Origin: Acytostelium subglobosum LB1
Taxonomy: Eukaryota; Evosea; Eumycetozoa; Acytosteliales; Acytosteliaceae
Assembly (NCBI RefSeq): GCF_000787575.1
Contig: NW_012236530.1
Location: 936,734 to 1,000,733 of the forward strand
Reading direction: 5' to 3'
Length of the DNA stretch: 64,000 nt
The notes beneath the pieces were generated by a model, which saw only the letters and a list, made by a program, of their open reading frames with translations, did not search any database and had not been told where the DNA came from. Within the stretch, counting starts at the first letter, position 1, and every line of letters begins with the position of its first letter. A program made the translations under genes and the position numbers. Shown piece after piece: positions 53,686 to 58,000 of this stretch.

Positions 53686-53934
53686 TTAACAACGACTCAT
53701 GTTTGATCTTGTGCCATTGATTCTCTTTCTATGCTTCTTGAGTGTCTTTCTTGATGTCTTGTTCATGACAGTCTCGAATGACTCTTGCTGTGTCTGTTGC
53801 TCTGGGATGACATTGATTGGCATCTGAGTCTGCATCATAAAGTTGTTCATGAAGAGTGTACCAGTTTGACGTTGAACAGTGTTCATGCTCAACATTCTGT
53901 TGACTGGTGTAATGAATCTGATAATGCCTGACAT
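53686..53934 (-). CDS. Small basic protein, possibly a mitochondrial ribosomal or mS38-like protein
   Basis: Single exon, 82 residues. The first about 40 residues (MSGIIRFITPVNRMLSMNTV) have the Arg-containing amphipathic look of a mitochondrial targeting sequence, and the end is very basic (KTSRKTLKKHRKRINGTRSN). This layout, a presequence plus a short basic C-terminal helix, is that of AURKAIP1/Cox24 (mS38), but the match to the family motif is weak. It could also be another small mitoribosomal or RNA-binding protein, or a chance frame. It is bracketed by the permease end and the twin element. Confidence 0.45.
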   Translation of the reverse strand: MSGIIRFITPVNRMLSMNTVQRQTGTLFMNNFMMQTQMPINVIPEQQTQQESFETVMNKTSRKTLKKHRKRINGTRSNMSRC

Positions 53935-54092: not shown

Positions 54093-54490
54093 TAATAATA
54101 ATTAATGAGGTGGAAATAATAAAGAATTATTTGTTTGAAACAGAACCATAAACAATTCGTAAGATTTTGAAATCTCATTGATATTTTAATATGATTATGA
54201 CGTAAGATTTGGGGGCAAGGTGCATAACTGTGATCGTCATACTTCGTACTTAATGATAATCCAACATTTCACTGTGAATAGAAAGCGACCGCCGATCGGA
54301 AGGAGCTATGCTTCGAACTCTCGTGGAGTCATGGCCACAATCGTGGCTGTGACGAAACAAACAAACATCCTACACATACCTAGCTGGTGTGTGTTCCAAA
54401 TCCAATCGGCGACGCGCAACTACCTCTAACCCAACCCTATTGTTGTTCTGTAGTAACTTTGACGACCTTGGTTCCAAGTCGTCAAACTAC
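54093..54490 (+). repeat. Twin element, copy 1 (with conserved 5' flank)
   Basis: Direct repeat of copy 2 at 54612-55010, about 515 bp apart. Identity is high in the 54211-54445 core, with several small indels, and lower but clear in the 120 bp before it (GAGGTGGAAA, AAAGAATTATTTG, AACCATAAA and GAAATCTC are shared). The indels shift reading frames, so common ancestry of a protein gene is less likely than a non-coding unit. Confidence 0.8.
54208..54490 (+). ncRNA. Candidate structured non-coding RNA, copy 1
   Basis: Predicted by eye. Two perfect-or-wobble hairpins are conserved: 54330-54351 (9-bp stem, loop AATC) and 54372-54394 (ACACATACC/GGTGTGTGT with loop TAGCT). A long-range helix CGCCGAT (54290-54296) with ATCGGCG (54405-54411) encloses both, TTGGG (54209-54213) can close with CCCAA (54430-54434), and a third hairpin TTTGACGAC/GTCGTCAAA lies at 54458-54486. 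AACCATAAA at 54144-54152 ends 57 bases before the start of the closing helix. This box resembles the DUSE promoter box of dictyostelid small RNA genes, which I recall as A(A/T)CCCATAA about 60 bases upstream. It matches none of the U snRNAs, U3, SRP or RNase P RNAs that I checked from memory. Confidence 0.5.
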
Positions 54491-54611
54491 ATATCAATTT
54501 GGGTTCAACTTTGGCAACAATTTAATGGCCAGGAGTAGGACATTAATTTCTAAATGTTCATTATGACTAACTGGCATAGTTTAGATAGTATCCAACATAA
54601 AGGTAATTTAA

Positions 54612-55010
54612 AAATAATAATTATAAAGAGGTGGAAAAATTAAAGAATTATTTGATAAACCATAAATAATGTTTAAAAAAGTGAAATCTCTTTGATTATT
54701 GGGTATTGATCAGATATCATGATTGGGGCAAAGGTGCATAACTGTGATCGTCATACTTCGTACTTTAATGATAATCCAACTGATGAATAGAAAGCGACCG
54801 CCGCCGAGAAGGAGTGATCTTATGATTGCTTCGAACTATCGTGGAGTCATGGCCACAATCGTGGCTGTGATGAAACAAACAAACATCCTACACATACCTA
54901 GCTGGTGTGTGTTCCAAACCTCGTCGGCGACGCGCAACTACCTCTAACCCAACCCTATTATTGTTTGTTTACCATGAACGACACCAGGTCGTGGCGTGAC
55001 CGGTCACGTC
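54612..55010 (+). repeat. Twin element, copy 2 (with conserved 5' flank)
   Basis: Second direct copy of the element at 54093-54490. It ends against the stop codon of the minus-strand GNAT-repeat gene at 55014. The 3' hairpin (ACGAC/GTCGT at 54978-54992) matches copy 1 in its core, and a perfect 14-bp palindrome CGTGACCGGTCACG follows at 54995-55008. Confidence 0.8.
54722..54992 (+). ncRNA. Candidate structured non-coding RNA, copy 2
   Basis: Both hairpins of copy 1 are kept exactly at 54848-54869 and 54890-54912. The enclosing helix keeps CGCCGA/TCGGCG, although the outer pairs differ: copy 1 continues with GG/CC after a mismatch, copy 2 with AGG/CCT after two mismatches, which is a change that preserves pairing. 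AACCATAAA at 54658-54666 again ends 57 bases before TTGGG at 54723. The two copies keep this spacing although the DNA between differs in sequence and in small indels. Confidence 0.5.
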
Positions 55011-55013
55011 TAT

Positions 55014-58000
55014 TTATTTATCTTTTGAGGACAATAGTATGTTGGGTTCGTAACCAGCGTTGGTATTGGTGTTTGGAATCACTTGGCTGTTGTGTAGTGA
55101 TGGTCCGAGTGCTGGTGATAGAGGGGCATCTGATGGTTGGTGAAGGAGGGTGTGTGAGTATATCAAAATGATTGATTGGAATGATTGGAATGATTCCAAG
55201 ATATAAATATACATACCGCTGACACTAATATTTGGTCGTTGATAGCTATAGTTGATATTCTTCTTCAACCCAGACTCTTTACCTTGTTCGGTCATTGGTC
55301 GATCGATACGAGTCTTGAGCCAAGGAAGGTCGAGACAGTGGAAGTAGTCGCTGTTGTCCAACAGGTCCATCATGTGTAGATAACAAGCATCGTTGGAAAA
55401 GTCGTATCCAATCAGTCCACACTCGTCCTCCCATAGATTGGTAATGAATGATCGCAATAGAGAGGATGGCACGTAGGGCTGTATCTCGCTGCCCTCGCCC
55501 AACTTGGGAATGCGGGGCGTGAGTAGTACGGTCAGACAGACGTTGTTGGACTTGGGATGCTTGAGGGATGTGGGGGGCTGGTAGTATTCGAAATCCAACA
55601 GACGGAAGCCTTTGTTGAACAGGAAGACGTGCGATAGGGACGAGTCAGTAGCACCAGTCGTCTCACTCAGTGATGAGAACATCACCTCCAAGAAGATGGC
55701 ATTGCATCCTGCAATGTGGCCCTTTTGCTTGGCGTTCTGGTCCAGGATGGTCAGGGTTCTCAGCACCAGGTCCGTGCCGATACCTTTGCCCGACCACTTC
55801 TGGTTCACGACCAGGTATGTGACCAGGGCGTTGTTGGTCTCGGGATAGTACTCAAACACCAGACCACCAATGATGTACTTGTGGCCCTTGCCCTTGTGCT
55901 CTCCAGGCAGGCCCAACACGAGTAGTACGTGCAGGTCACAAATGTTGGGGTCATCACGTCCCTCATCAGACATTGCCTTGTGCCAGTTCTCGATTGGTTC
56001 CAACTCGTCTGAAGTGCCAAACTGCGTGATCATGTACTTGTTGTAGAAAGCGTCGAGCAGATCTTCATCATAGTCCTCCCAGAGATCCACGATCGTCCAG
56101 TCTTTGCCATCGCCCCATGGAAGGTCAAGCAGGGGCACCTTCTCTCGCAGCTCCAGCTGATCCAGTGATTGATTAAAGTCAAAGTCCTGGTTGGGTGGCG
56201 TAGACAGACGTCCATTGCGCATGGCACTCTCCCATTGCGCCGAGATGAAGTTCTTTAGAAGCACGTTGGGCAGGAAGTACTGGCGGTTGTTGTTAAAGTC
56301 CTGATAGGGAATGTGCGGCGTGAGGTAGACCGTCAGCAGCAGCACACTCTTTAGCTTCTCGTAACCGGCGCACAGGGGCGGCATGATGTATTCAAAGTTG
56401 ATCAGACGGAAGCCCATCTTGTGATAGATCGTGTGTCTCATACGCGGGTCCATGACGTCCTGCTGCACTGTCACCTTCTCTGCCGAGTTGGTCTCAAGGA
56501 AGATGGCGTTGCATCCAGCCAGCTGTCCACGCTGTTTGGCGTGGCGGTCCAGCAGCTCGACAGATCGCTCCACAAGTATGCCTGCCAGGCCCTGTCCACG
56601 ACTGGAACGGTGCACGACCAGGTATGACAAGAGTCCACAGTTTGTCGATGGATAGTATTCAAAGGTGATGCCGGCACCAATCGTGGGTTGCAGATCGGAA
56701 GAGTCTGTGGGCCAGCGCAGAGCAAGCAACACGTGCAGCTCTGCGACATGTGGGTTGAAGTTGGTTCGTCTCTCCTCTGAGAGCGCATTGATGAAGTTTG
56801 AGAGTGGCTCCAGCTCGTTCTTGATTGGGAAGTTGGGTAACATCAGCTCGTTGTAGAATCGAATGAGCAGCTCCTCGTCGTAGTCGTCCCAGAGGTCGAC
56901 CAAGGTCCATGGCTTGCTCTGACCCCAGGGCAAGTCCAACAGGGGTATCTTCTCACGGTACTCAACCTGTTCAATCACTCGCTGGAAGTCGCTGTCCTTG
57001 TTGGGGAACTCCTTCATCTTCTTTGTAGCGTATGCATTGCGCCACAACACTGTGACAAAGTTCTTGAGCACTGAGCTTGGCAGGTAGTACTTGCCCTCCT
57101 CAAGCGGCATCTTGGGGATGTGCTCCGTCAAGTAGACGGTCAGCAGGAAGTTGCGAAGCTTGGGCAAGCCCATGGCGATTGGTGGCGCGATGTACTCAAA
57201 GTCAATCAGACGGAAGCCTATCTGGTGGTAGACTGAATGACGCATACGTGGGTCCACGACATCTTGCTTGATAGTCACCTTCTCGCCACTGTACACTTCG
57301 AGGAAGATGGCATTGCATCCGGGAAGATAGCCTTGCGACTTGGCATTCTGATCGAGAATCTCCAGGGCTGACTCCACGAGTATTCTGTCCAGGCCCTTGC
57401 CCTTGAATGCCTTCTGGACGATCAGGTAGGTGAGCAGGCCACAATTGTTGGCCGAGAAGTATTCAAAGATGATTGCAGCCTCGATTATCGGTTGTGTATT
57501 ACTATTGTCCTGTGGCCATCGCAGCGCCAACAATATATGCAAGTCAGAGATGTTTGGATCGTCTCTTGCCTCTGATGAGAATGCTGATATCATGCTTTCC
57601 AATGGTTCCAACTCTGTATCCATCAGTTGATTGAGTGAGAGAATGAGTGAATGAGTGTGATTGAGTGAGGGTGAGTGTACTTACCAGACTTGTTGGGGAA
57701 GTTGGGTATCATTATCTCTTTGTAGAATCGCTCAAGGAGATCCTTGTCATAGTCCTCCCAGAGGTCGACCAGTGTCCATGGTTTACCTAAATCCCACGGA
57801 AGATCCAACAGGGGAATGCGCTCGCGCAGCTCAATCTGCTCGAGCATTCGCTGATGCTCTGGATAGACATTGGGCGACATCTTGATCTGCTGGCTGCCAT
57901 AGGCATTCTCCCATTGTAGCTCGACGAATGATTTGATCAAGTTGAATGGTATGTACGGCTTGTCGCCCTTCTCATGTGAACGTGGGATCAAGCTGGTGAG

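Follow-up and report, generated by a model that had tools for sequence, protein, structure and literature searches.

A four-copy family of putative structured RNA genes

The window, by which we mean the whole 64,000-nt stretch of Acytostelium subglobosum DNA under analysis (C54:936734-1000733), carries two direct copies of an element on its plus strand, and we hold with moderate confidence that these and two further copies in the same genome form a four-member gene family for one structured non-coding RNA of ~234-263 nt, most likely an RNP scaffold, whose transcription and function we infer. The family probably represents a genuine cellular RNA that has yet to be described. An earlier note on this DNA had read the copies as RNA genes of a candidate new family, each preceded by a DUSE-type box, and this reading is supported. 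The features of copies 1 and 2, in window coordinates, are as follows.

54144-54152, plus strand: DUSE-like box AACCATAAA of copy 1, CCATAA 67 nt before GGTGCA
54208-54441, plus strand: putative RNA body of copy 1, 234 nt
54209-54213, plus strand: 5' strand of the closing helix, TTGGG, pairing with CCCAA at 54430-54434 (in copy 4, TGGGC with GCCCA)
54218-54222, plus strand: second closing helix, AGGTG, pairing with TACCT at 54421-54425; missing from the single-copy fold of copy 4
54285-54299, plus strand: 5' strands of two helices, GCG/CGC (54285-54287 with 54415-54417) and long-range (54290-54299 with 54402-54411)
54302-54314, plus strand: hairpin A, of different length in different copies
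54328-54353, plus strand: hairpin B, 97.7% of cells paired
54372-54394, plus strand: hairpin C, loop CTAG, 97.2% of cells paired, changes on both sides in 4 of 9 pairs
54402-54441, plus strand: 3' sides of the closing, GCG/CGC and long-range helices, with ACCCTATT as the shared end
54658-54666, plus strand: DUSE-like box AACCATAAA of copy 2, CCATAA 67 nt before GGTGCA
54723-54959, plus strand: putative RNA body of copy 2, 237 nt
54799-54929, plus strand: helices of copy 2, namely long-range (54799-54808 with 54920-54929), A (54811-54832), B (54846-54871) and C (54890-54912)

The two direct copies had been placed ~515 bp apart, and this is borne out by alignment and by the repeat families of the window (139, 108, 31 and 31 nt at spacings of 518, 514, 521 and 509, i.e., 509-521). 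A DNA search of the genome (30.73 Mb in 56 contigs, one species) with copy 1 located copy 3 at C24:47451-47673 (minus strand, 73%, E 4e-26) and copy 4 at C36:378921-379108 (minus strand, 70%, E 1e-9), both on contigs other than that of the window and within dissimilar flanks. Used as a DNA query against the genome, copy 4 returned itself and both window copies and missed copy 3. A core pattern of 35 places, with three mismatches allowed, occurs at four places in the genome, each with zero mismatches, and at none in a reversed control. The family total thus stands at four copies found; such DNA searches score the best candidates only, so more diverged copies are possible. Pattern scans gave no match in the viral_contigs and genome_contigs collections, a further pattern scan of viral_contigs gave one match, without covariance-model support, and blastn against plasmids gave no match.

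Copies 1 and 2 are identical at 210 of 227 aligned bases in the body, as against 84 of 122 upstream and 28 of 62 downstream (130 nt upstream and 65 nt downstream compared); judging by this alignment, the element is held in these copies while its surroundings drift. On the upstream side, the flanks of copy 3 and copy 4 agree with that of copy 1 at 62/128 and 59/129 aligned bases, respectively, the level of unrelated DNA. The strong likeness among the copies ends past ACCCTATT (counterpart in copy 3, ACCCTTTT), giving a shared RNA body of 234-263 nt across all four.

The neighborhood of the copies holds other features. An 82-aa basic ORF without Pfam match (window 53686-53934, minus strand) diverges from copy 1, and an 869-aa ORF (window 55014-57623, minus strand), with GNAT acetyltransferase domain matches in apparently repeated units, converges on copy 2. 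A tRNA gene (58.4 bits, L003 2503-2576) lies ~800 bases from copy 3.

A fold that covaries between copies

A hand-written core structure of 42 pairs shows changes on both sides in 12 pairs (18 cells), a number reached by 0 of 500 shuffles, this covariation resting on four sequences, a small number, two of them close. Paired cells amount to 91.5% compared with a shuffled mean of 80.8% (0/500 as good), and sliding the partner strand lowers pairing to 28-51%, a control that is flattered by the core structure having been drawn with the four sequences in view. In RNAalifold, the four copies yield 51 pairs, 11 of them with both-side changes. A covariance model of the core scores the four copies at 137.6-171.3 bits; searched against the window, L003, L004 and 13 RNase P, MRP, SRP, U3, U1 and U2 loci, its only extra match was the opposite strand of copy 3 (E 0.24).

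The long-range helix contributes both-side changes in 5 of its 10 pairs. Its outer five positions vary between copies and yet pair, apart from a single mismatch in copy 1 and another in copy 2, and copy 4 has one mismatch in the inner part. The earlier description of this helix (54290-54296 with 54405-54411, CGCCGAT/ATCGGCG) as kept in copy 2 with a changed outer part is confirmed, except that the changed part includes one mismatch. Of the two hairpins described as identical in both window copies, hairpin C (54372-54394; 54890-54912) is so, and hairpin B (54328-54353; 54846-54871) is nearly so, with a difference only at the final base, which makes a basal G-C or G-U pair. Hairpin C has three different sequences across the family. 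Homologues with compensatory changes had been predicted, and they turned up as the two further copies in the same genome.

Folded singly, copies 1-4 have z values of -3.64, -4.46, -6.18 and -2.95, and each of the four folds contains some form of the closing helix, the long-range helix, hairpin B and hairpin C. Hairpin A is less regular: in copy 3 only its inner four pairs form, the hairpin base pairing elsewhere, and in copy 4 it is out of register in the alignment and was scored as broken, the copy's own fold containing a six-pair version. For the 5' domain, no two copies give the same fold.

A DUSE-like box at a fixed distance

Within the window, both strands considered, AACCATAAA is found only at the two sites listed above. 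The distance from the end of CCATAA to GGTGCA is 67, 67, 68 and 68 nt in copies 1-4, and in all four CCATAA ends 56-57 nt ahead of the closing-helix region, in agreement with the earlier claim of a box at a fixed distance before that helix. CCATAA occurs 21 times on the two strands of the window, which corresponds to a chance of 0.0005 per locus for a 3-base slot.

The same box accompanies other RNA genes of this genome, being upstream of 9 of 13 U1, U2, U3, SRP-like, RNase P and MRP genes. Its end lies 54-55 nt before U1 (3/4), 50 nt before U2 (2/4) and 57 nt before U3 (1/1), and 74-75 nt and 92 nt before the model start of the SRP-like (2/2) and RNase P (1/1) genes, respectively; no CCATAA was found within 130 nt of the MRP gene (0/1). 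According to two studies, a DUSE lies ~60 nt ahead of dictyostelid ncRNA genes, whether these are transcribed by Pol II or by Pol III (PMC3188802; PMC7919456), and the latter describes the A. subglobosum DUSE as having two Cs in most cases (PMC7919456). The spacing of 67-68 nt in all four copies matches both the known DUSE spacing of ~60 nt and the U1, U2 and U3 genes of this genome.

The 3' end

Each putative RNA had been estimated at ~240-285 bases, and a third 3' hairpin with ACGAC/GTCGT had been described. The gene candidate stands, with a common body of 234-263 nt that ends near ACCCTATT and excludes this hairpin. Both window copies do have the hairpin, but it lies beyond the last stretch common to all four, and copies 3 and 4 are not followed by it. 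Directly 3' of copies 1 and 2 are strong but different hairpins (54461-54490 and 54978-55011), possibly tied to the 3' end. The minimum free energies of the 75 nt downstream are -19.0 and -15.1 for copies 1 and 2 and -4.7 and -8.5 for copies 3 and 4, the latter without ACGAC/GTCGT.

Other RNA genes of the genome have recognizable 3' signals. A AAAGATAAACAAA-like box with at most two mismatches lies 14-22 nt after the model end of all eight U1/U2 hits, and none was found after the U3, two SRP-like, RNase P and MRP genes and the four copies (0/9, best 4-6 mismatches). The box after U1/U2 (L124-L131) is thereby a candidate for an snRNA 3' box. Runs of at least five T's occur downstream of the U3 and SRP-like genes only, none being found after the four copies, and CCCTATT occurs 23 nt beyond the end of the RNase P model.

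Search for known RNA families

The earlier note found no fit to known small RNAs, and the searches agree. Rfam gave no match at cut-off in the window; with E up to 10, five weak matches fell near copies 1-2, none of them to RNase P, MRP, SRP, U3, spliceosomal or telomerase families, and with E up to 5 none overlapped copies 3-4. The known RNAs have loci elsewhere: RNase P RNA (RF00009) on C47 with 91.6 bits, MRP RNA (RF00030) on C53 with 69.9 bits and U3 (RF00012) on C40 with 76.9 bits, all passing the cut-off. Searches for U1 and U2 (RF00003/RF00004) gave four U2 hits above cut-off (86.6-110 bits) and four U1 hits below it (48.8-67.3 bits) that start with the expected ATACTTACC. A genome search with RF01570 returned nothing. 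Two SRP-like genes (L012 and L013, on C49 and C45; 38.2 and 37.5 bits, below the cut-off of 65), each with CCATAA upstream and a 3' T-run, are missed by the Rfam model Dictyostelium_SRP.

An identity of the copies with RNase P, MRP, SRP, U3 or U1/U2 RNA was rejected, as no model matches them with E up to 10 (copies 1-2) or 5 (copies 3-4), these RNAs have their own loci and the U1/U2 3' box is missing. The suggestion that TAACCCAA recalls the CR-V of RNase P also falls, since this string forms the 3' side of the closing helix and the gene for RNase P RNA lies at a separate locus. Class I RNA was likewise discarded: a length of ~50-70 nt with a terminal stem and an 11-nt motif would be expected, and the body measures 234-263 nt and matches no Rfam family at cut-off.

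Alternative explanations

Two alternatives deny the family a functional RNA. A short family of protein-coding genes could be read from the ATG in hairpin B: the frame that it starts is open in every one of the four copies, and in copies 1-3 it is open upstream as well. This reading fails and is barely credible: in-frame stops lie upstream in copy 4, the frames have different ends in different copies, copies 1 and 2 differ by a one-base indel near 54249, hairpin C of copies 3 and 4 has one-base length changes, and the sequence changes track base pairing. A small SINE-like or other repeat family devoid of functional genes would account for several dispersed copies and for a possible Pol III-like box, but it is very unlikely given that only four copies were found in all, each with core and promoter box intact, and that their changes are compensatory and not random.

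The other two alternatives assign the RNA to a known type, and both are weaker options than a new RNP-scaffold family, neither having positive sequence support. A divergent relative of RNase P/MRP, working either as an endonuclease or as the specialised paralogue of such an enzyme, is unlikely, though the gene anatomy resembles that of RNase P here (CCATAA upstream, no T-run of at least five, no U1/U2-type 3' box, a CCCTATT string). The helix order also equals that of P/MRP, with the closing stem as P1/P2, the 5' domain at P3, a helix at P4 and the three-hairpin junction as specificity domain. However, likeness by helix order alone is weak, no P/MRP match appears with E up to 10 (copies 1-2) or 5 (copies 3-4), and the element's model finds neither the bona fide RNase P (91.6 bits) nor the MRP gene (69.9 bits). 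A dictyostelid telomerase RNA is, like the repeat family, very unlikely. A TERT RNA-binding domain is present in the genome (43.6 bits) and CCCAACCCTATT is template-like in appearance; yet this C-rich string varies by copy (CCCAACCCTATT, CCCAACCCTTTT, CCCAAACCCTATT) and lies at the 3' end, partly inside the closing helix, copies 1-2 match no Rfam telomerase family with E up to 10, and four copies would be unusual for telomerase RNA. One report describes ordinary GT-rich telomere repeats in P. pallidum and D. fasciculatum (PMC4931340), so that a telomerase RNA is to be expected, and in D. discoideum it is given as not known in another (PMC6592521), a question that a telomerase identity would answer.

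The telomere repeat of A. subglobosum was also sought. No G-rich tandem repeat was found at 112 contig ends (800 bases each; 17 all N). A triple TWRGGG pattern with one mismatch occurs at 184+180 places compared with 32+26 in a reversed control, and nine distinct TWRGGG runs from 20 loci resemble interior microsatellites. An 11-bp satellite, TATTCACTGGC or near variants, was seen in up to 68 copies in the last 800 bases of C54, C29, C12 and C16 (L074, L143, L162 and L166); it is possibly subtelomeric or centromeric.

A putative RNP scaffold

In the preferred reading, that of a new RNP-scaffold RNA, each gene would be transcribed from its DUSE-like box, with a start near the closing helix and an RNA 3' end near ACCCUAUU, and the closing stem would join both ends of the RNA. 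The 5' domain, with its conserved stretch GURAUCGYCWUACUUYG, may offer a recognition surface, and the long-range helix would carry the three-hairpin junction, whose near-unchanged linkers GUGGA and GAYGAAACAAA and loop CUAG could bind proteins. Four copies, as for U1 and U2 in this genome, suggest an abundant RNA of the housekeeping type. We give slightly less than even weight to the more specific proposal that the family is the founding member of an undescribed dictyostelid RNP, its RNA being abundant and of the housekeeping type, with a fold of its own, as many gene copies as U1 or U2 and a job outside those of the known eukaryotic small RNAs.

Eukaryotes are not known to have many structured RNAs of such a length outside the described families. 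Among the open-licence papers listed in topic searches, no title or abstract dealt with such an RNA, which may be in print elsewhere. If expressed and present in other dictyostelids, the family would be a sign of an RNP so far unrecognised. A search model that combines the covarying fold with the fixed promoter box is already provided by the four copies.

Comparison with known systems

The U1 and U2 genes resemble the family in having four hits each and CCATAA upstream (5/8), but show no sequence likeness to it and are all followed by the AAAGATAAACAAA-like box (8/8) that the four copies lack. The SRP-like and U3 genes share the upstream CCATAA (3/3 loci) and, unlike the family, end in 3' T-runs at their separate loci. 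RNase P/MRP RNA is similar in size, closing stem and long-range helix order, and the RNase P gene likewise combines a CCATAA box with the absence of T-run and 3' box, albeit at a separate locus and with no model match. The dictyostelid Class I/II RNAs, as two studies describe them (PMC7919456; PMC3188802), are like the family in their DUSE ~60 nt upstream, their several diverged paralogues, the compensatory change in their stem and their conserved unpaired motif. They differ in architecture, being short (~50-70 nt) and having a single terminal stem and a motif of the CCTTACAG type, whereas the RNA proposed here would be a multi-branched molecule of 234-263 nt.
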